This document shows positions 15,701 through 59,793 of a stretch of DNA of 64,000 bases, in pieces (the stretch's first letter is position 1; each line of letters begins with the position of its first letter). The notes under the pieces are model-generated. The model saw nothing but the letters and a program-made list of their open reading frames with translations, did no database searches and was not told where the DNA came from. The translations under genes and the position numbers were made by a program. The stretch comes from Maylandia zebra (taxonomy: Eukaryota > Chordata > Actinopteri > Cichliformes > Cichlidae): assembly GCF_041146795.1 (NCBI RefSeq), contig NC_135173.1, forward strand, positions 56,844,865-56,908,864, written 5' to 3'.

Positions 15701-18700
15701 AAATTTGTGTGGATAATGCTAATGTGGATGTTATGTGTTTTAAGGTTAATTTTGAAAGTGACATCCGTAGCAAGTACCTGGAACTTCTGGGGTACAACAA
15801 AGAGGAGCTGGCTTTAAAGGTGCGACATGTTATCTGTTCATCTGCATGTGAAATATGATGCTACGCATGTTTTTCAGTTGAACTTGTGATTAATTTATCC
15901 ATTTGTTGTCAGATTTCAGCAGCACTAGAGGAGCAGTCTGCCAATCCCCTGAAGGTAAGCTTGTCAAAGCAGCTAATCTTATATTGTGAATTTTAAAGGA
16001 GTATCTCAGCATTAAATCTCTTTATGGGGTATCAGAGATAAAGGATGCCACTCTGATGTGTGTCCTTTAAAAGTGAATAAAGATGAATGTGACAGTCAAT
16101 AATTAGTGTGATCACCTTTATCCTTTAACATAGCCTGAAGTTTGTTAGCAAGCTTTCTTGTCATTTCTTTAACTGCTCTTAGTAGTTTTTTTCTGTTCTT
16201 AGTTAAGATGATCCCACACTCCGCCAATAATGTTGAGATCTAGGTTCTAGGAATGCCAAACAACACTGATACTGATAGTGTTTTTCTATCCAGGTTTGCT
16301 TTTACTGCACTGGCAGTGTGTTTGGGATCATTGTTATGGTGAAAAATAAAGCTGGTGCAAATCAGATGCTTTCCAGGTGGCATTGCATTGTGAATCAGAA
16401 TCTGATAGTACTTTTCTGTGTTCATAATTCCATCAGTTTTGACAAAATCCCCAGCACCACTCAGTGAAATGCAGGTCTAAACCATAACATATCCTCCTCC
16501 ATGTTTTACAAAGGGCTGTAGACACTCTCTCCTAACCTCCTCTGTACAAATTGATAATGATGTGAGCCAAAGATTTTAAATTCAGTTCTTGTGTAATTTG
16601 GCATACCTCAGCCTTTTCTCCCTGTTTCCCCGCCTTTCTGATGAAGCTTTGTCAAACAGTAGACGGATTAACTGAAGGGCCAGATGTGTCTCTCAGGACC
16701 TGTATCAGGTCTTTGCTGGATTTATTTCTAATTCTTATTAGTTTTTTTAGATCTTCTTCTTTTGTCCTCCACTCTTCAGTTTCCTCAGTCTTTTAAAGGA
16801 TACACTACACACAACCTGTGTAAAAAATACTGTTTTATTCTTGTCAAACTATAATATCTTTGACATTTTTCATAGATTTAACTTAAATATGAAATGGGAA
16901 CAAATGATATGTTTTTGTGATGGGCTGCTAGTAACAAAGTGCATATGCATGTAGACAACACCCTGAATGAAAAGGAAGCAAAAAGTTTTTCTGGTACAAG
17001 GACTGATAATGTGTGAAAAAGCAGCCAATGTCCAAAGACATAGAGAAGCCGGGAGAAGTACTTCTCAAGGCCACTCATTGGAGAGCCAATGAGAGACTTT
17101 TGCACAGTACTGCATGCACAGGAAAGTAGTGGGAAACACACTAACTAGTCAGCTAGCATCCTCCTTCAGATATTTTTATGTCTGTGCTTTCTGAGCTGTG
17201 CTTTCTGAGCAGTCCAGGTTTGAAGTTTTCCTTTGGTGTAAAATTGCTGGAAAAGGACTATTGGCTTGCCACATCAGATTTTCTTATTTAAACAAGCGTC
17301 ATGGAGATTTGTAATTTTTAAGTCTCTCCTGAGACTCAGCCTATTCATTTATGTCCTCTGTAATGGACATTTGTTTTTGGTCTATATCTTTTGACTTAAG
17401 TCCCAGTGTGCTTGAAATAGGACATCCTGGCCTTTACAATTATATCTCATCTGTTTGCTCCAAATAGGCAGGAAATCACCAAAAAGTTAAACTGAAAGAT
17501 ATTTTTCCCCTCAATCCTCACAAACAAAAGCAACTCAAAAAAGTCGAACCCTAATCCAACAAGAACTCCTGCTTTTTCAACTTTGGAATGAAACCTTTCC
17601 AGGCTTTTCCTAGTAGCAAGAAAGAAATATGGATATCAAAACATTATTGACATGATTCTGGCTCATCTGACATTTCATTCTGTGGGTAAAGCAGCAAAAT
17701 TATATCTCAATCGGTGAAGTTAATAACAATTTGTAAAAAAATCATTAAACATAATGTTTGCAGTCTAATGATGAATAGTAGCAGTTTTATACTGGAAAAT
17801 GTATCACTAAACCGCTGTTCAGGTTTCCAGACAAGGACTACACACACAGTGTCACCACTTTCATAGCAGGAAGACTTAGCAGCTCAATAATGTAACATTT
17901 CCTTCAGGTTTTGTTGGACTCCAAAAACTGAACTGAAAGACCGTATCCCATCACGCTCACATTTATCAGGTGCACACAAATGCAACACTACATGCAACAT
18001 TAAACATAATGAAAAGCTGCTACAAGGGTCAGCCTGCCTCTTTAAAAGGATGTAGCTGTTACCTTCTAAAAAACTTCCTATGGTCTTGAAATGTTTGTCT
18101 TTCCATTCCAAGACCATTTCTTAAATGAACAAAGTTTTACATTGATCTAAACTTTTTATTTGCTCCTCACGTGTATTTTCACGACACTGCTATGCTATGC
18201 AGTCCATATTTCACCCCACATTGGTCTCCATTCAACTCAGCCTGTTCTGATCTGTTCGCATTTGTTCACTGACAGAAGAATAAAAAAGTCTGACTGATTG
18301 CTGCTGGCAGTAATTACAGCTTGTCAAAGCCTCAGTTCACGGCGGAAAAGATGTTTGTCTCTGTCTTATGTTTTGCAATATGGGAAGTGTTGTAAGCAAC
18401 AAAGTCATGTTTCAATGCTATAAACTCAACTTCGCTTTTTGACATTACTCAGAGGAAGCTCGACATTTGAAAGTCACAATCACAGCAAAAAAGTGGAAAT
18501 TCTTGAGTCTGCAGTGCCGCACACTTTAGGAAAGCACTCTGTCACACGCGCTTGTATGCACTGCTCACTTTCTGTATAAATGTATTGCAGTGTTTATGCA
18601 TCTGGTTCCACCAGTGACCTCAAATAGGAGCTTTACTCCAGTGCTAAATCTAGTGATTTTGCTTTTGTCTTCATTCTCTGACATATGGAAAATAATATTG

Positions 18701-35984: not shown

Positions 35985-38900
35985 ATGGTGAATTTCAGCC
36001 TGTGGGCTCTTCTGCCTCCCATCTACTCTGTTTGTACTGCTGCTGGACTGTTGATGGTGTAAGTTTTGTTCTTTTTAGGAACACATTAACCTCATATATA
36101 CACTCAGAGAGGTATATGAACAGTTAAAAAGAGCCAAAAAAGCAACAAAGATAACCAGATTAACTGGTTATTATCTGTGTACACTCTGTACTATTCAATT
36201 CAATTCAATGAAATTCAATTTCATTTATATAGCGCCAAATCACAACAACAGTCGCCTCAAGGCACTTATACTATACAGATACCCAATAAAAGAAAACCAT
36301 GAAGACACCAAAAAGGATCACTTGCAACACAAAACAGCACTGACACAAATATCTATGTCTGATAAGCAACTAAAAAAACACAATATCAACACAGAGACAT
36401 AACGACTAGAAAGAAATGTGTAAAATGAGCAACAGGAAGTCAAATATTAGGGACGAATAAGATTAACCAAAGAGAGATTAAAAATGATAAGAAAAACATG
36501 TGACACACAAATCAGAAACTAACAAGAAGCACTCCGACAGCCCAAACCTGCACCAAGGCAGCTCACTCTCTGAGGAGTATTTACTTTTAACAGAACCGCT
36601 TTGTATTTTGGTTTTCTTTGTTCTTTTTAAATGGACTTGAAGAAGTTTGTAGTGCAATAAAAATGCATTTTGGTTTCAACTTGAACGAAAGGCAAATTTT
36701 CTATATGTTGACAATAGACACCACACGTATAAGAGTCATAGTTTTGAAGTTATAAGGCTTTTTGTCACTTTCCAACCAATAATTCTCGGTGGATGTAAGT
36801 CAAATTTCATTGGATTGTTACCATCACCCCACCCTACACCTACAAAGTTTTATCAGGATTCATTCAAAACGTTTTGAGCGATCATGTTCCCAGACAGAAT
36901 GACACACGTGTGCACACCCAACCTGCTAGGGAGGGTGGGTTATGTTTACCAGTAGGTTACCAGTGAAAGACTACAAGAAAGGGAACAAAAATGGGAAATG
37001 AAGATGAAAACCAGATGATAAGAGACTATGAACGCTGGCGTTACATGAAAGTATGTATGTAGACGAGCAGTTCATGATCGAAATATTTCAAACCAGAGTA
37101 GTTAAAAAAACAAACAAACACACACACCTCAGTATTGCTTCCACTTTTGTTACAGAATGTTTTATTCATTATGTTTCTTTCTGTGTTGCTGCCTTTAAAC
37201 AGGTACTTCATAGCTGTTTACAATAAGAACATAACGCCGCTGGGTTCACAATACAGGTTTGAATTCATATATTTTATATACTGCAGGTATTTCTTTTGAT
37301 GTATCTGTGGATTCATGCTGTTCATTTGCTTTAGGAGAAGAAATGGCTCCCTTTATCCCCCCTACATGAGGTGTGTGCTGTGCTCTCCGTTTCATATCAT
37401 ATTAACAATAAAAAACGTTTAATTTAAGAATAGCAAATATGATTTTTCTCCTGCTTCTTGTCTCAGTATTGCAGGCAACTTTCCTCCAGCCAGCTGTGTC
37501 TTCAGTGAAGTCATGAACCTAGCAGCATTTGTAGGTAATGGAAACATTGCTCTAGAGCTTTCATTAAAAGACAGCGATGGAGCTCATAAGAAAAAACGTA
37601 TATCAAGCTTTGGATACATAGACAGTACATTAGTTTGCTGTTTTCATTGATTCAGAACATCTTTCAGCTCATTTAAAAAAAAGAAAGAAAAATAAATCTT
37701 GTTTTTAAACTACTCGCTGTGTGCTGAGAGGTTTGTTTTTAGATCCGTAATGGTTCTTCTCCTGTTTTCAGGGTTTTTTATTGCCGTTTTCAGATACCTG
37801 CAGCTGAAGGGCAAAATTGACAAACCTTGGCTGAACATTTCTAGTTTGGTGGTTTTTTCTATTAGCTCCTTTGGAATGACCATTGTAGGGAATTTTCAGG
37901 TAGTTACACACAAACATACACATGCTCATACATACACCACGTCATCTGGTGGTTAATTTTCCAACTTAATAACTGAAGTCTGGGTTTACTGACTGACTGG
38001 TTTTTGTGTTAGGTATTCACTGAGACAAACATTCACAATGTTGGCGCCGTATTGGTGTTTGGACTTGGAACCTTGTCCTGCTGGCTGCAGTCCTATATCA
38101 CCCTGAGAGTTAACCTGAAGAATGAGGGGAAGATGGCTGCCATCGCTCGATTCCTGTTGTCTGGATCCATCACTCTTTGCATGATACTTTGTATCCTTTT
38201 ACTTGGTATAAAGAGAAGAATACACTCATTTGAGTGAGATGCCCATTTTTCACATGAAATGCAAAAGAGCAAAAACGCTCCCTTACTGGCATTCAAGAAC
38301 GAATTACAACTCCAGGTCCCACAGAGTTTTGCACCTTTTGTGTAAAAGGTAAATGAAAACAGTATGCAATGATTTGCAAATCTCAGAAACCCATATTCTA
38401 TTTACAGAAGAACACAGAAACATAACAAGTGTTTAAGCTCATTTTGACATTTAATGGCAGCGACAGGTCCCAAAAAAAGGGCAACAAGAGGCTGGAAAAG
38501 TAAGAGGTACTAAAAAGAAGCAGCTCCAGGAACCTTTGCAACTAGGGATAGCTCAGTAGGTAAAGTGGTCGCCCCATGATCGGAAGGTCGGCGGTTCGAA
38601 TCCACTTAACGGCTACCCTGAGGTACCCCTGAGCAAGGTACCGTCCCTACACACTGCTCCCCGGGCGCCTGCTTAGTGGGCTGCCCACTGCTTCACTGAG
38701 TGAATGGGTCAAATGCAGAGAAAAACAAGTAATTTCCCCATGGGGATCAATAAAGTATCCATTATTATTATTATTAATAACTAATACAGTGAACTGGCAA
38801 CAGGTCAGTAACATGACTGGGTATACTGTAAGAGGCAGAGATTCTTGGAAGTAAAAACTGGCAGAGGTTCAGCAGTCTGTGGAAAAAACTGTCTAAAGTT

Positions 38901-40070
38901 GTGGAGTATTTTCAGAATAATATATCTAAACACAAAGTTGCAAAGACTTTGATCTCATCATCAACATATGTATTATTTAAAGATTTGAAGAAAATAGAGA
39001 AATGTCTGTGCATAAGAGGAAAGGCTGAAATTCAGTACTGGATACCCATGCTCTTTATGCCTTTAAGCAGCACTGCATAAAAAACAGCCATGATTCTGCA
39101 TTGATAATCGCATGCATGGCCTCAGAAACACTTTCAGGAAGTTTGTTATTGTCTGTGGACAAAGCCATGCCATCCATAAATGCAGGTAAAAGCTCTGTCG
39201 TGCAAAGAAGAAGCCATAAGTGAGAATGATCCGGAAACCCTGCAGACTTTAAAATGGACTGAGGCCCTGTCCACTGTTCTGTGGTCAGGGGAATCGAAAT
39301 TTGAGTCTCATGGACACTGCGCTCTCCAGACTAAAGAGAAGTGATATCACCATAATATATAATACATACTTATTATATATTATGATTTGTTTGATGCCCG
39401 GAAACATGTAAGTGTGACACATATGCAAAAAAATAAGAAGGGGGGGCACTCTGTTTATTTGAAATGACAGTTTATTTGGGTTTGTATCGTTAATGCTTCA
39501 TCTTTAGAATTTCCTGATATAGGCTACATATATTCTAAAATTTAATGTTTTAATTTGATAGATTTTGTATTTTCTCTTGGCTTTGGTCTTTAAACCTTTT
39601 ATGTTTTTTTATCAAATTGATCTGATTATGATCTGATTATGATTATGATCTATTACTGATCTCTTTATCTGATCTCTTTATCTGATTCTCTACCTAATAA
39701 GGAGCTATAAAAATACTTTCAGACCGTCTCTCTGCTCTTAGTTTGGATGGAGTTTATTTTCTACCCAGCTCAGCAGATGAATAGCACATAATTCTGGTAG
39801 AGAACTGTAACAATATAATGTGATGTTCATTTTTCATGTGCTCACACCTTCACTCTCTGAACCCTTAACTCCATCGACACAGACTTCTCCCTGATGTCTC
39901 AACGCCTTCATATGCATGCAAGTCAATGCCAGTGGGCACTCGTCATGATGTTGCTCATCTTCATCAGCACTTTTGCCATCGAGTTTCGTCACAGCAGCTT
40001 CAGTATTCTGTGCACAGACAGACCAGGGTATCCCTTCCATCACTCAGAAACCTCTGAAGGGCCTATGTAG
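35985..40070 (+). CDS. tmem150c: tmem150c: TMEM150/DRAM-family membrane protein (tentonin 3)
   Basis: Coding exons are 35985-36058, 37203-37256, 37335-37370, 37467-37534, 37772-37899, 38013-38190 and 39883-40070, giving 241 aa (human TMEM150C 249). The start is MVNFSLWALLPPIYSVC, a hydrophobic segment directly after the initiator. Recognisable family stretches are PPYMSIAGNFPPASCVFSEV (extracellular loop with conserved cysteine), KPWLNISSLVVF, SFGMTIVGNFQVF, IHNVGAVLVFGLGTLSCW, LRVNLKNEGKMA and FISTFAIEFRHSSFSILC. Six hydrophobic segments are visible. The human protein is described as a modulator or component of mechanically activated currents. The match to TMEM150C is much closer than to TMEM150A, despite vamp8 and mat2a lying nearby. 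The C-terminal tail is shorter and unlike human. The large last intron holds a split Tc1 relic and a SINE. Confidence 0.95.
36187..36560 (+). repeat. Common teleost repeat (5' phrase clear, remainder diverged)
   Basis: TTCAATTTCATTTATATAGC followed by GCCAAATCACAACAACAGTC and GCCTCAAGGCACTTATACTA is one of the commonest interspersed phrases in perch-like fish, probably of LINE or SINE origin. The downstream 280 bp is A-rich and not recognisable. It lies in the tmem150c intron after the first coding exon. Confidence 0.55.
36770..36940. repeat. Possible degenerate LINE-type repeat
   Basis: GTCAAATTTCATTGGATTG, then AAAGTTTTATCAGGATTCAT and CGTTTTGAGCGATCATG followed by a cagacaga/acacac stretch, resembles the end of fish repeats with an untranslated 'exceeding-conserved' phrase. 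Support is weak. Confidence 0.25.
38335..39330 (+). mobile_element. Degenerate Tc1-like transposon interrupted by a SINE
   Basis: GCAATGATTTGCAAATCTC, GCTCATTTTGACATTTAATG, GGCAACAAGAGGCTGGAAAA and (after the SINE) GGCAACAGGTCAGTAACATG, GTTGCAAAGACTTTGATCTC, GCCATCCATAAATGCAGGT, AAAATGGACTGAGGC and CTGTTCTGTGGTCAGGGGA appear in the order of a known fish Tc1-like element running left to right. Many small changes have removed any long open frame. The two halves read smoothly into each other once 38545-38778 is set aside. It lies in the last tmem150c intron. Confidence 0.8.
38545..38778 (+). mobile_element. tRNA-derived SINE nested in a Tc1 relic
   Basis: The head is tRNA-like, with A box TAGCTCAGTAGGTAAAG and B box GGTTCGAATCC. 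The body is CCCTGAGCAAGGTACCGTCC, and the tail (CCCCATGGGGATCAATAAAG) ends in ATT repeats. Short flanking duplications AACTA (38540-38544 and 38779-38783) fit a target duplication. It splits the Tc1-like relic at 38335-39330, so it inserted later. Confidence 0.88.
39388..39452 (+). mobile_element. Isolated Tc1-family terminal repeat
   Basis: TTGATGCCCGGAAACATGTA, AGTGTGACACATATGC, then AAAAAAATAAGAAGGGGGGG matches the terminal repeat of the Tc1 family also seen at 10810-11030. Only about 65 bp remains. Confidence 0.5.
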
Positions 40071-48853: not shown

Positions 48854-51800
48854 ATGTCGGATGATTATGAATTAAGCGACGACCCGAACATGATGAGAAT
48901 GGAGGAGGATGGAGAGGCGAACAGTGACGACCCGATGTCAGCAGCGGGGGACTGTGGCCTTATGGGGGGCGAGGCCGAAGGATCAAGGATCGACGCCAGT
49001 AAAAACGAGGAGGATGAAGGGTATGGTGATGGTGAAGGGTGGATAGACTCAGGTTCACTGTTGATAATCGAAAAGATGCTGTAGCTGCAGGACCGGATTT
49101 TTGCAGGACCTGGCATTGTTATTGTTGGGTACTACTTTATTCATTAGGAGGGGTGATTATTTTAACAAGCATTCATAAACTAAACATTACACTAGAACGA
49201 TTTCCGAGGTGTTTGAGTGTTACCGGTTTGCTATTTTAAAAGTTTGGGTTTTAAAAGGAAATGTTAGACTAAAGTAAGTGATATTTTCAAATATCATTTA
49301 CTTTTGAATGTTTGTTATTATTTTCAGTTTTCTGTTTAGAAAAACAGCTTTGCCTGTTGTTCAGAAAATCAAAGTATGGATGTCAAAGGAGCTTGCAAAG
49401 AAAAGCGTCTTGACTTCTTTAAGTTGCTTGAAGACGTTTCACCTCTCACCCGTGAAGCTTCTTCAGTTCTAAGGTCAAATGGTGGAGAGTCCCAGATATA
49501 AATCTAGTGGGAGTAACCCCCCACAGAGGGACAAAAGGACCCCCTGATGATCCTCTAATCGCCTGAGCCAAGGTGTGAAACTGGGTGTGGGTCCCAATCA
49601 GCCAGAGTTTCGGGTGAGTTCATTGTGAAACCTGGCCCCACCTTATGCGAATTCCTGAGATCAGATGGCCCAGGATGTGAGTGGGCGTTAAGGCGTCTGG
49701 GAAGGGATCTCAAAACTGGATTATAGATGGCAGAGAGTTGGTGTCGTAAACCCCCGCCTCTGTTCAAAGATGGTCGCTCACAGTGGACATAGATGGCTTC
49801 TTTCACTCCTCTTTCAAACCATCTGTCCTCTCTGTCCAAAATGTGAACATTGGCATCCTCGAAAGAATGTCCTTTATCCTTAAGATGCAGATGGACTGCT
49901 GAGTCTTGTCCTGTGGAGGTGGCTCTTCTGTGTTGTGCCATGTGCTTGTGAAGTGGCTGTTTGGTCTCTCCAATGTAGAGGTCTGGGCATTCCTCGCTGC
50001 ACTGTACAGCATACACCACATTGTTAAGTTTGTGTTTTGGCGTTTTGTCTTTCGGGTGAACCAGTTTCTGTCTGAGCGTGTTGCTGGGTCTGAAATGCAC
50101 CGGGATGTCATGCTTGGAGAAAACTCTCCTGAGTTTTTCTGATACACCGGCTACATAGGGGATGACAATGTTCAGACAGACGCAACAACAACCGCTGTAC
50201 AGTGCAGCGAGGAATGCCCAGACCTCGCATAAGGTGGGGCCAGGTTTCACAATGAACTCACCTGAAACTCTGGCTGATTGGGACCCACACCCAGTTTCAC
50301 ACCTTGGCTCAGGCGATTAGAGGATCATCAGGGGGTCCTTTTGTCCCTCTGTGGGGGGTTACTCCCACTAGGTTTATATCTGGGACTCTCCACCATTTGA
50401 CCTTAGAACTGAAGAAGCTTCTCGGATGAGAGGTGAAACGTCTTCAAGTAACTTAAAGAAGTCCAGATGCTTTTCTTTGCAAGCTCCTTTGACTACGATG
50501 ACCTGGATGACTGAGAACCTTCACAAAGTATGGATGCATATACAGAGTATTGGTTTGTTATTGTCCTGTGGTGTGACAGAAAATGATGCAAAGAATAGGG
50601 TGAAGTATAGGCAAATTATCCGTTTTAGCGACGTCCAATGGGAGCACTAAAAAGAAGAAGATTGCATTAGATTACCAATCATTGATATTGGCTAATAATT
50701 AGCAAATGTTTAAGTGTTGGCAATATCAATCAAAAGTGGAGCTAATGGTTCCAAAATTGTATGAAGAGCATACATTACAGTGCAGGATTTTTGTTTCCCT
50801 TTTTAGGAAAGGTGGGAAATAAAACCCAAAATAAAGTCACAAGACTTACAAAATATATATATCGCCATCAGCTGTGAGTCACAGTCCTTTTATATCAACC
50901 TGGTCACTGAATCCCTTAATTAAAAATAATTAGAACAGGTTCAATTTAGGGAATATCTTAACATTTTATCACTGCAGTTGTAAACAAAACCATCTTTCTT
51001 GATAATAACACTGCACTGGTTGGTTGCAGGTCTACAGTACTTCACTGGTGGATTTATATGCATGGTTTTCCTTGCAATAAAGTGATTGATTCTGATATAG
51101 AAAGGGGTTTTGGACTTACACCATTTAAAAATCACCATCACTTTAAAATAACAAAACAATTACCCCACGTTTCATGATTATAGTTGAATTTACTCAAGAA
51201 TAAATACATTTCTCTTTATCAAATGGTCATAAACAACAGAAAGATGTTAACAGGCTTCTGTTAAGAAAGGGAACAGATTCTTTGCCCTATTTTAATATGG
51301 ACAAAACATGTTTATATGTGAAGGCCCATTTTGAGCTAAGAAAAACCCTTGTATGTGTTCACATTTTGATTGCACATAAAAGATTAAATCAGGTCCTCAT
51401 TAGTCACCTAATGAATGGAGAATCTGCTGTGTTTGATATTGTATTGTCTGGATGTAAATTGATGATAAATTACTTACTAAGCAAGTTACATAGATTACTT
51501 GTAGCAAATGAGGGGACCTTTGAGCAGCCCAGCTGTTTAAAGAAGCTTGCATACAGTGGGGCAAAAAAGTACTTAGTCAGCCACCGATTGTGCAAGTTCC
51601 CCCACTTAAAATGATGACAGAGGTCAGTAATTTGCACCAGAGGTACACTTCAACTGTGAGAGACAGAATGTGAAAAAAAATCCATGAATTCACATGGTAG
51701 GATTTGTAAAGAATTTATTCGTAAATTAGGGTGGAAAATAAGTATTTGGTCACCTCAAACAAGGAAAATCTCTGGCTCTCACAGACCTGTAACGTCTTCT

Positions 51801-54800
51801 GTAAGAAGCTTTTCTGTCCCCCACTCGTTACCTGTATGAATGGCACCTGTTTGAACTCATCATCTGTATAAAAGACACCTGTCCACAGCCTCAAACAGTC
51901 AGACTCCAAACTCCGCCATGGCCAAGACCAAAGAGCTTTGGAAGGACACCAGGAAAAGTATTGTAGACCTGCACCAGACTGGGAAGAGTGAATCTACAAT
52001 AGGCAAGCAGCTTGGTGTGAAAAAATCAACTGTGGGAGCAATCATCAGAAAATGGAAGACATACAAGACCACTGATAATCTCCCTCGATCTGGGGCTCCA
52101 CGCAAGATCTCATCCCGTGGGGTCAAAATGATCATGAGAACGGTGAGCAAAGATCCCAGAACCACACGGGGGGACCTGGTGAATGACCTGCAGAGAGCTG
52201 GGACCAAAGTAACAAAGGTCACCATCAGTAACACACTACAACGGCAGGGAATCAAATCCCGCAGTGCCAGACGTGTTCCGCTGCTGAAGCCAGTGCATGT
52301 CCAGGCCTGTCTGAAGTTTGCCAGAGAGCACATGGATGATACAGCAGAGGATTGGGAGAATGTCATGTGGTCAGATGAAACCAAAGTAGAACTTTTTGGT
52401 ATAAACTCAACTCGTCGTGTTTGGAGGAAGAAGAATACTGAGTTGCATCCCAAGAACACCATACCTACTGTGAAGCATGGGGGTGGAAACATCATGCTAT
52501 GGGGCTGTTTTTCTGCCAAGGGGACAGGACGACTGATCCGTGTTAAGGACAGAATGAATGGGGCCATGTATCGTGAGATTTTGAGCCAAAACCTCCTTCC
52601 ATCAGTGAGAACTTTGAAGATGAAACGAGGCTGGGTCTTCCAACATGACAATGATCCAAAACACACCGCCCGGGCAACAAAGGAGTGGCTCCGTAAGAAG
52701 CATTTGAAAGTCCTGGAGTGGCCTAGCCAGTCTCCAGACCTCAACCCCATAGAAAATCTGTGGCGGGAGTTGAAAGTCTGTGTTGCTTGGCGACAGCCCC
52801 AAAACATCACTGCTCTCGAGAAGATCTGCATGGAGGAATGGGCCAAAATACCAGCTACTGTGTGTGCAAACCTGGTAAAGACCTATAGTAAACGTTTGAC
52901 CTCTGTTATTGCCAACAAAGGTTATGTTACAAAGTATTGAGTTGTATTTTTGTTATTGACCAAATACTTATTTTCCACCCTGATTTACGAATAAATTCTT
53001 TACAAATCCTACCATGTGGATTCATGGATTTTTTTTTTTCCACATTCTGTCTCTCACAGTTGAAGTGTACCTCTGGTGCAAATTACTGACCTCTGTCATC
53101 ATTTTAAGTGGGGGAACTTGCACAATCGGTGGCTGACTAAATACTTTTTTGCCCCACTGTAGAGATCTTATAAAGCAGTCTCAACACATAGACACCACCT
53201 GCTTATTTTTGTGTGATTTGTCAACAGGAAGATGTTTGTTGGAGGCCTCAGCTGGGACACGACTAAGAAGGACCTGAAAGATTACTTTTCAAAGTTTGGG
53301 GAAGTGGTAGACTGCACGTTAAAGCTGGACCCCATGACTGGACGGTCAAGGGGTTTTGGGTTTGTGCTCTTCAAAGAACCTGAAAGTGTTGATAAGGTAT
53401 TATCCTGTTCACATAAGGGGATGTGTGTGGTTTTTTTTTTTTTAATTACCAGTAAATTTGCTTTTCTAACAGACATGAACTTGCTGTGATTGTGCAGTTT
53501 CATGTCTGTGTGGGTGGCTTTTTTTTTTTTCAGTTTTATTTAATGATTAGCAGAAAATTTTAATATTTGGCCTTTTTTGGCAATTTGGATTTAAATTAGA
53601 ATGAATGTAACTATACTACTGCGCGGTTTATGAATACAACCTATAAAGTTTGAGCTCAATGATGCCCAAACAATCAAACATCCGTTCCGCTAAATCAAAA
53701 TGAAAGATGAAATATTCACGTATGTACATTTTTGTCAATGGTCTATATTGCTTTACAGGTTGCCTCACAGAAAGAACATAAACTTAACGGGAAGGTGATT
53801 GACCCCAAAAAAGCCAAGGCCATGAAGAGCAAGGAGCCAGTAAAGAAGATCTTTGTTGGTGGTCTCTCTCCTGACACTCCTGAAGAGAAAGTCAGAGAGT
53901 ATTTTGGTGCCTTCGGAGAGGTGAGTGACTTGTGAAAATTAGATTTTGTTTGATCTTTTCCCCCACTTGTTCTGTGTGGCTCTGCAGGGCTCCTATTTGC
54001 CCATTAAATTATGTCTTAATGTGAACAGGTGGAGTCCGTTGAGCTTCCCATGGAGAACAAAACAAACAAAAGGAGAGGCTTCTGTTTCATCACATTCAAG
54101 GAGGAGGAGCCAGTAAAGAAGATTATGGAAAAAAAGTACCACAATATTGGATTAAGCAAGGTACAGTCCTTTTCTTTTAGGTCCTATATTATGTGTTTTT
54201 ATTTTTCAGAATTTCCCCCCTTTTTATATGTAGAAAAAAGTCTGCGATGCATATGTTGAAAAGCTGTATGTCTTCTCTCACTCAGTCTCTCCCTACCGTT
54301 CTGTCTCTATTACAAATAAATAAATGAAACATTAATACATTAATTTTAAAAAACCCCGTTAGTTTACCTGAACTGAGGCCACTCTCATTGTCTTATCAAA
54401 GCAGCCAGACTCCACTTATAAATTTTATAGCTGATCAACCTGTTGCTTTACTGCTGCATCAAAAGGTTCGTTTATGTGACTTTGGTGTTTTAACATGATA
54501 ATTATGAATCAAACTAAGGTGTTAAACACCAGAGCCACACAGCAGCGACGTGACAGCAACTAAAGCAGCCCTGTTCTTTTCAAATGTAGATAATTTGGCT
54601 AACATAATTGTTAGCTTTGACTGTATACACAGTCAAAGCGTGTCAAAGCTCTGGGGAAAAAGAAATGCTGAGGATAGTGACTTTGTGGAATTATTACAGA
54701 CAGATTAGTAACCTTTTAAAAAGTACTGTGTGGGTGTTACTTTATATGCTTCAGTGCACTTAAACTCATCTGGCTTTCTGTTAGCATTTACATCTGTTTG

Positions 54801-58239: not shown

Positions 58240-59793
58240 TTATATAACTTTTGTGGCAGCAAGGATGATGAGGATGATGATGATCAGCACAATCACACCG
58301 ATTAGGATCATCATTTTAACATTTTTCCACCAGTATTTTCTGGCCACCCTTGTGGATGTTCTCTGGAATGAGTCAGCCTGAAAAGAAAAAAAACTGCCAA
58401 ATTAAACCCTGATATTTGAGGAAGCACATGCGTCGTTTAAAGACAAGCAATCTCCAGAAGCCCTATAAAGCATCAACCATTTGCAAGCTTTAGAGATGAA
58501 CACGAAGGTTTCTGATTGAGTGATTACAAAGTGATGAAGAATGATGAATGGATAATTAAAACAGGGACCCTAAAATACTAGAAGAACAAACTGAGTTTTT
58601 GTTTCCCAAGGATGGTTACATGTATTGCAAAGATGTAAATGTGCATGAAATACTGAAATATTAAGTATCTAGTGAGAACAAGTTACCATACATATATAAA
58701 TAATTGAGATGAAATAGATACTAAACTAAAGGGGTGACCGCAGTAGTGTATAACTGTTTAAACATCCTAGCTAAAAGTAACAATAAAACATTTAAAAGTG
58801 GGTGAGCGGTAAAAAAGAAATGTAGTTGAATAGCTGAAACAGGTAGCAATGTGTGGGTTATTTTACAAATTTGGTCTGTAAATGAAAGCAAAAGAAAACA
58901 AAGGTTTATAGGGGAACTGGAAACTGCTAGGGACGTTTCCCTAATCAGACAACAAACTGTAAAGGTTAGGAAACTGCTTTAGTGTCAAATAAGGCATTTT
59001 ATTATGACTATATGTATCAGGAGCAGGATTTTCTTTTTAAATCTCAACCCGTCTAGTTACAAACATACCATACTATCCCCAGAAATCATGAAATCACTCA
59101 AAGTATCTGAAAGCTTTACTTTATGAACAAAAAGCATAAATATGCTTTGTAGCACAGCTAAACATAATATCTTCATATATGATAAAAGATAAAATGGATT
59201 CAAGCTTCTTCCTAAAAGGCCCACGATCGGATACTTACAGACGCCTGCAGGTCATCCGTCTTGCCAATCAGATCATCTAATCTGTCGCCTCTCTCCAGCA
59301 CTTTGTTGATGTTGTCTGTCAGAATAACTTTAACCTCATTTACCTGACCTTGCACTTGGTCAAGCTTAGAGGCCGGAACAGCGGGAGTTGGCTGAGAATG
59401 TTGGTCAGCCTGTGAAAAATGGTGGAAATTGATTCACTTTTAGTGCTGTTGGTCCCTTATCCAAACATTTACTACCATGTGTATGCCACTACAGGTCTGC
59501 CGGGCAAATGGCGGTGCTACAGTCCCTGTATAAGTTATTTCTAAGAACCAAACCTTACTTCCTGCAACTGTGCTAACAGGAAAAAGTGCTGTCAAGTGTC
59601 AGTAAGTTTACCAAGGCCTGTGTCACTGCCAGATGAGCACCATTGTCACAAAGTAAATTTTACTTTCAAAATTTTGATACGGGATTGTTCAATAATGTCA
59701 AGATTGACATCAAGTCACCCTCAGTCATCAATAGAAGAGCAGTATATTAGGCAAAAATGAAGTTATAGTCTAAAAATAACATCGACTTACCAT
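58240..59793 (-). CDS. vamp8: vamp8-like R-SNARE (endobrevin)
   Basis: This is a tail-anchored R-SNARE for endosomal, lysosomal and secretory-granule fusion. Minus-strand exons are 59793-59791 (initiator ATG only), 59409-59239 and 58377-58240, giving 103 aa (human VAMP8 100). The SNARE motif runs from about residue 16 ([20 protein letters not shown]) and carries the central-layer arginine in [12 protein letters not shown]. It is followed by [20 protein letters not shown], the basic/tryptophan juxtamembrane [10 protein letters not shown], and a C-terminal hydrophobic anchor ([19 protein letters not shown]). The [12 protein letters not shown] stretch and KT(D/E)DL favour VAMP8 over VAMP2/3. Neighbouring mat2a supports this, as VAMP8 and MAT2A are close on human 2p11. 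It converges tail-to-tail with hnrnpd, with less than 300 bp between the hnrnpd poly-A signals and this stop codon. Confidence 0.9.

Follow-up and report, generated by a model that had tools for sequence, protein, structure and literature searches.

Evidence for a recent insertion of a complete Tc1-like transposon in an intron of a Maylandia zebra hnRNP-type gene

A 64,000-nucleotide stretch of Maylandia zebra DNA (NCBI RefSeq assembly GCF_041146795.1, contig NC_135173.1, positions 56,844,865 to 56,908,864 of the forward strand; referred to here as the window) raises the question of whether the Tc1-like transposon at its positions 51554-53159 is, as an original prediction from sequence had it, complete, young and possibly active. 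The results reported here make it very probable that this element is a complete DD34E Tc1 transposon whose domains resemble those of Sleeping Beauty. It very probably entered a TA dinucleotide within intron 1 of a gene of the hnRNP D/A-B type while its family was undergoing a recent burst, about one million years (My) ago or less, and was moved, probably, by transposase supplied in trans.

Structure of the transposon and its genomic copies

Direct reading of the sequence placed the transposon at 51554-53159, flanked as TA / CAGT...ACTG / TA at 51552-53161. Counted with TA, the arms comprised 51552-51752 (201 nt) and 52957-53161 (205 nt), or 199 and 203 bp without it. Three C/T substitutions and one length/composition difference at an A-run set them apart, a total that is about the four or five differences predicted. 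Each arm contained the 13-bp core AAGTAYTTRGTCA twice, at an outer and an inner position, giving four sites in total (outer, 51567-51579 and 53134-53146; inner, 51740-51752 and 52957-52969). A single frame that filled most of the middle of the element (51918-52940) encoded 340 amino acids (aa), with a catalytic triad of D153, D244 and E279 in which 34 residues separate the second D from E (i.e., DD34E). Placement in the Tc1/mariner DD34E group was indicated by a DDE_3 domain and two helix-turn-helix (HTH) domains (HTH_SB and HTH_Tnp_Tc3_2), all above the Pfam cut-off, and placement in the long-arm inverted repeat/direct repeat subgroup by CAGT ends and by arms that measure some 200 bp and hold repeats in outer and inner positions. 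A TATA-like site starts 51 bp upstream of the ATG and an AATAAA lies 50 bp downstream of the stop. The TA duplication and the predicted ends were thus exact, and the near-identical arms of about 200 bp, their inner repeats and the uninterrupted transposase with its full set of DD34E residues were all found as described; ends, arms and open frame together bear out the description of the transposon as complete. The features of the element are as follows.

51552-51553, no strand: TA target-site copy, left (sequence)
51554-51752, plus strand: left terminal inverted repeat (inverted-repeat comparison)
51567-51579, plus strand: left outer direct-repeat core AAGTACTTAGTCA, with the private base of the window copy, C at 51572 (sequence and copy alignment)
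51714-51719, minus strand: AATAAA in the left arm (sequence; role inferred)
51740-51752, plus strand: left inner direct-repeat core (sequence)
51867-51873, plus strand: TATAAAA, probable TATA box for expression of the transposase (sequence)
51918-52940, plus strand: transposase open reading frame (ORF), 340 aa plus stop (ORF, Pfam, structure match)
51918-52073, plus strand: HTH_SB DNA-binding domain, aa 1-52, contains S8W (Pfam PF25787, E 1.7e-22)
52128-52337, plus strand: HTH_Tnp_Tc3_2 domain, aa 71-140, contains R131C (Pfam PF01498, E 1e-20)
52362-52793, plus strand: DDE_3 catalytic domain, aa 149-292, with D153, D244 and E279, and R288C and R291W at its end (Pfam PF13358, E 8.2e-15)
52957-53159, minus strand: right terminal inverted repeat (inverted-repeat comparison)
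52957-52969, minus strand: right inner direct-repeat core (sequence)
52990-52995, plus strand: AATAAA in the right arm, where transposase transcripts would probably be polyadenylated (sequence)
53134-53146, minus strand: right outer direct-repeat core (sequence)
53160-53161, no strand: TA target-site copy, right (sequence)

Copies were sought in the same genome (962 Mb in 63 contigs, the window being on C7). The DNA search gave 978 first-look candidates, of which 40, including the window copy, were scored; all 40 were 99-100% identical and spanned positions 1-1606 or, in one case, 2-1606, at most 2 bases short at one end. Chance was excluded as the source of this structure because of the 39 other copies at such identity. 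In the protein search, 116 of 119 scored places (window copy included) were without a stop. A third search, with a core query of transposase aa 151-270 that was chosen as free of common variants in the copies known by then, found at least 150 places, and the 120 aa were 100% identical in all those listed. The matches listed were all on C1-C3 (57, 44 and 49), with 95 of 150 in a frame of at least 361 aa and 44 of 150 in a frame shorter than 340 aa. By extrapolation, the family would number on the order of a thousand young copies if the other contigs resemble C1-C3. A frame of exactly 306 aa was noted in 13 of the 150 core-identical matches listed; such frames would be consistent with a shift of frame at codons 35-36, in the A-run, and a defect of this type was seen in none of the 10 non-standard ORFs among the 111 aligned copies described below. 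A defect inherited in common, recurrent slippage and errors of sequencing are all possible sources.

The 111-copy set comprised the window copy, 39 copies from the DNA list and 57 of 60 and 16 of 19 copies from the protein list, i.e., 113 copies less two (L097, with the same flanks as L096, and L122, with a right flank like that of L083); three copies from each protein-list group were left out as not full length. With a fixed start motif as the criterion, the full ORF was present in 101 of the 111, and the other ten consisted of one that was intact save for one start-motif residue, one with a lost stop, two in which the start codon was altered or absent, with the remainder broken. TA bounded both ends of the element here and in 94 of 97 full-length copies, and insertion sites among these 97 favoured ATATATAT around the TA, which is AT-rich and palindromic. 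When the 200-bp flanks of all 113 copies were compared, those of the window copy matched no others at E<=1e-20 and similarity at this threshold was noted in 6 pairs of other copies, so that most insertions look independent. Together, the copies indicate that this Tc1 family expanded recently. Copies L096 and L097, about 4 Mb apart on C3, shared both 200-bp flanks at 99-100%, as expected of a single insertion duplicated together with its surroundings. A very long open frame beside one copy was rejected as an artefact of a run of N. Relatives were also sought elsewhere, with no pattern match in viral contigs and with three stretches that fit the pattern in prokaryote genomes, none of them a relative.

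Age of the insertion and possible exchange between its arms

The original prediction had proposed that copies be aligned as a test of age, and this alignment, run on the 111 selected copies (1608 bp), pointed to a young window copy. Thus, copies differed from the consensus by a mean of 6.5 substitutions, with a mean of 2.5 private to one copy, and the corresponding numbers for the window copy were 8 and 1. Pairwise difference over the whole 1.6 kb was about 0.7% (97 copies). At the zebrafish rate of 4.13e-9 per synonymous site per year that is quoted in PMC7913693, one private change corresponds to about 0.15 My (95% 0.004-0.84 My). For 7 or 8 changes the estimate is about 1.1-1.2 My, with an upper 95% bound for 7 of about 2.2 My. 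These values suggest an insertion age of roughly 1 My or less. PMC11202377 places the divergence of two Lake Malawi species less than a million years ago; should the host belong to the Lake Malawi group, an insertion of such age could differ between species or individuals.

The prediction of a young insertion was therefore upheld by the comparison of copies (one private base among 111) and not by the argument originally given for it, namely the similarity of the two arms, which is weak. The likeness of long terminal repeats (LTRs) dates LTR elements because a single template gives rise to both LTRs. In a cut-and-paste element, insertion involves no such copying of the arms; they move as they stand, and any difference between them is inherited and cannot serve as a clock. 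In the 40 copies closest to the window copy, arm differences ranged from 0 to 7 substitutions.

Variants shared by the two arms were in excess of expectation. Seven variants were found in both the left and the right arm, with two or more copies bearing them on either side, compared with 2.3 expected, and none of 20000 type-matched shuffles reached 7. In a weaker test that also counted single occurrences, the overlap was 19 compared with 11.8 expected, and the largest shuffle value was 21 (96 copies, i.e., the 97 less L097). One variant, 170G, was borne by 24 of 111 right arms, and left arms with 170G carried the usual right-arm bases 140C and 177C in 7 of 9 cases compared with 25 of 97 (p 0.003); six further within-arm pairs leaned the same way, none reaching p 0.05. 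These results, from a selected sample and of modest effect, suggest that the inverted arms exchange tracts with each other. The broader reading, that both inverted repeats of this vertebrate Tc1 family keep swapping short tracts, so that arm likeness is no clock and the ends evolve together, is put forward tentatively, at somewhat less than even confidence. Under it, a pool of arm haplotypes would exist, of which the window copy represents one state (at marker sites 55, 140, 170 and 177, T-T-C-T in the left arm and T-C-C-C in the right). The practical consequence is a warning that DNA transposons are not to be dated by the likeness of their two ends.

Recombination between copies was also considered as the main explanation and was withdrawn. 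Many pairs of sites showed all four combinations in the selected sample, and shared variants looked unlinked (mean r2 0.012 compared with 0.011 after shuffling, 97 selected copies); this picture came from a sample picked for likeness. Six less selected copies were also compared: these were the copies with 361-aa frames among the first nine in a random order of new places, three with shorter frames being left out, and for two of the six the alignment covers part of the length (31-1607 and 296-1608). Variants 212T and 535A occurred together in 3 of the 6, so that much of the apparent lack of linkage may stem from the choice of copies.

Condition of the transposase and alternative explanations

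Compared with the consensus of the sampled copies, the transposase of the window copy carried S8W, R131C, R288C and R291W. Sleeping Beauty has the consensus residue at S8, R131 and R288 and not at R291, and R288C and R291W lie 9 and 12 residues past the catalytic E279. Each change was also found elsewhere (S8W in 30, R131C in 11, R288C in 26 and R291W in 11 of the 111 copies, window copy counted). Three of the four were C-to-T changes at CpG, seen in 11, 26 and 11 of these copies, compared with a mean of 0.95 copies with such a change at other CpG positions (63 positions, maximum 5). The three CpG variants were enriched at least partly through the choice of copies by likeness, and repeat hits, shared descent or exchange may have contributed. 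None of 96 other copies compared shared three or more of the seven variants that the window copy showed in that comparison, and its one private base, C at 51572, fell in the left outer direct repeat. Judged from conservation, the four changes probably weaken the enzyme. An open frame by itself is no proof of a working enzyme, and activity of the window transposase is doubtful. The original prediction had named departure from consensus near the catalytic site as a point against it, and this was found in part (R288C and R291W), the triad itself being intact. Its suggestion of possible activity fits the family, given the 116 of 119 places without a stop and the 95 of 150 listed core matches in long frames, and is doubtful for the window copy with its four departures.

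In the mechanism proposed, transposase would be expressed from the internal TATA-driven gene, its paired HTH domains would bind the four direct repeats, the two transposon ends would be joined by the enzyme, and the DDE site would cut, after which the element would insert into TA. The window copy would have moved with transposase supplied in trans by other copies, which is probable given how many family members have open frames. That its own transposase works and moved it in cis, as an autonomous copy, is compatible with the open 340-aa frame, the DDE triad and the complete arms, and each of the four changes, being found in other copies, is singly compatible with spread. The combination left no sampled offspring, however, the altered S8, R131 and R288 are residues shared with Sleeping Beauty, and the private base sits in the left outer direct repeat, so that autonomy is judged unlikely. 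An open frame in the same sense within an intron could also be expected of a transposase domesticated for a host function, and singleton changes among the 111 copies (54 silent, 73 amino-acid-changing and 6 stops, compared with 45, 127 and 8 expected) included fewer amino-acid changes than expected, in a set for which 73 of 113 copies were picked by protein. Among the 40 copies picked by DNA, in contrast, there was no sign of selection (18 silent, 50 amino-acid-changing and 4 stops, compared with 697:2230:133 possible), and complete arms with TA copies, the many copies of the same kind and the four departures of the window copy itself leave domestication hardly credible.

An old insertion might also have been made to look young by gene conversion among copies, for which the variants shared by both arms and the company kept by 170G in left arms would speak. 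Conversion would need to hold the whole 1.6 kb at about 0.7% across more than 100 scattered copies, and shared variants were unlinked in the selected sample, an objection weakened by the 3 of 6 less selected copies with 212T and 535A; this explanation is regarded as improbable.

Several points weigh against the preferred reading of a young element from a recent burst, moved in trans. The 111 aligned copies had been chosen because they resembled the window copy or its protein (73 of the 113 by protein), and the six less selected copies, at 6-14 substitutions, suggest a somewhat greater age for the whole family than would be gathered from its nearest copies. The age was computed with a zebrafish rate, and the shared coding variants, if repeat hits, lift the private count from 1 to as many as 8. 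The weakening of the enzyme is judged from conservation only, and S8W, in 30 of 111 copies, may be harmless. Mobility of the family, similarly, is read indirectly from its many near-identical copies.

Host gene, neighbourhood and known relatives

Within the host gene, which is of hnRNP D/A-B type, the insertion occupies predicted intron 1, in the same sense and 68 bp upstream of exon 2. This exon codes for an RNA recognition motif (RRM; Pfam RRM_1), for which the best solved-structure match was hnRNP D-like, with hnRNP D0 and A/B among the next.

49021-53227, plus strand: intron 1 of the host gene, predicted (splice sites read by eye)
53228-53396, plus strand: exon 2 of the hnRNP D/A-B-type gene, RRM (Pfam RRM_1; end read by eye)

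An AATAAA was noted in both transposon arms (51714-51719 and 52990-52995), each facing outward, and the plus-strand signal at 52990-52995 could bring about an early end of host gene transcripts in intron 1. The same intron also holds inverted 269-bp arms (49382-49650 and 50225-50493) that are 97.4% alike and delimit a second mobile-looking unit (49382-50493). A minus-strand frame within that unit (49555-50316), which was without a Pfam match at E<=0.01, presumably resembles the end of a Penelope-like element. Elsewhere in the window, an exon of a synaptobrevin/VAMP-type gene was noted at 59215-59433 on the minus strand (Pfam PF00957). The original prediction had also placed Tc1 relics at 16095-17113 and 38335-39330. 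The former was supported by a minus-strand relic of another family at 16270-16515 (42% identity over 83 aa to the window transposase, E 4.6e-16), a Pfam scan of the frame at 16243-16476 giving no match. The latter was not, there being no tblastn match of 38335-39330 to the window transposase at E<=0.01 and no Pfam match for the Tc1-like reading at 39180-39341.

The arms of Sleeping Beauty are long and contain outer as well as inner repeats. The DD34E signature and domain order of its transposase (SB100X) are the same as those of the window element. The best solved relative was the Sleeping Beauty catalytic chain (5cr4), which matched window aa 114-340 (E 6.8e-85, 133 of 227 identical). Sleeping Beauty transposase is given as 340 aa in PMC9777934, the same length as the window transposase; unlike the natural window copy, it is a rebuilt and evolved laboratory enzyme. 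Zebrafish ZB (Tc1-8B_DR) is described as 1597 bp with 341 aa and 201-bp arms, and ZB-like members with 340 aa and arms of about 200 bp are reported (PMC7913693, PMC9777934), as are ZB- and SB-type copies, some intact, in many Cichliformes (PMC9777934); the likeness to ZB and ZB-like elements, in size, arm length and Cichliformes hosts, is by published descriptions only. A TA target, CAGT ends, 200-bp arms and a length of about 1600 bp are reported for DTSsa1 and Group 1 Tc1 elements of salmonids and lampreys (PMC2198921, PMC3516227), and in target, ends, arm length and element length the window element has these in common with them. Nucleotide identity within Group 1 is put at 92.5-100% (PMC3516227). 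The Group 1 forward primers (three of the six primers) had no match in the window at <=3 mismatches, which speaks indirectly against membership of Group 1 without settling it.

The kind of element is well known, and young Tc1 insertions in cichlids are already published. Thus, Tc1-Mariner copies of 0-1% divergence are reported to make up 1.3% of the Metriaclima (Maylandia) zebra assembly and to be in excess over Nile tilapia (PMC6447674); the window element resembles these in being a young insertion in a cichlid, the published figures being superfamily totals. A text search of open-access papers with stretches of the terminal repeats gave no match; the family may nonetheless already have a name. 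Its near-identical copies, at least 150 and most with open frames, offer natural material for determining which members remain mobile and whether altered copies ride on others, and the hnRNP-gene insertion is a useful case for asking whether it varies among individuals or species. As a parallel to the arm exchange suggested here, exchange between dispersed Tc1 copies of C. elegans was reportedly described by Fischer et al. in 2003. Mosaic copies of Pokey in Daphnia, formed through recombination or conversion, are reported in PMC3575242. In both of these systems exchange is between copies, whereas the better signal in the family studied here lies between the two arms.

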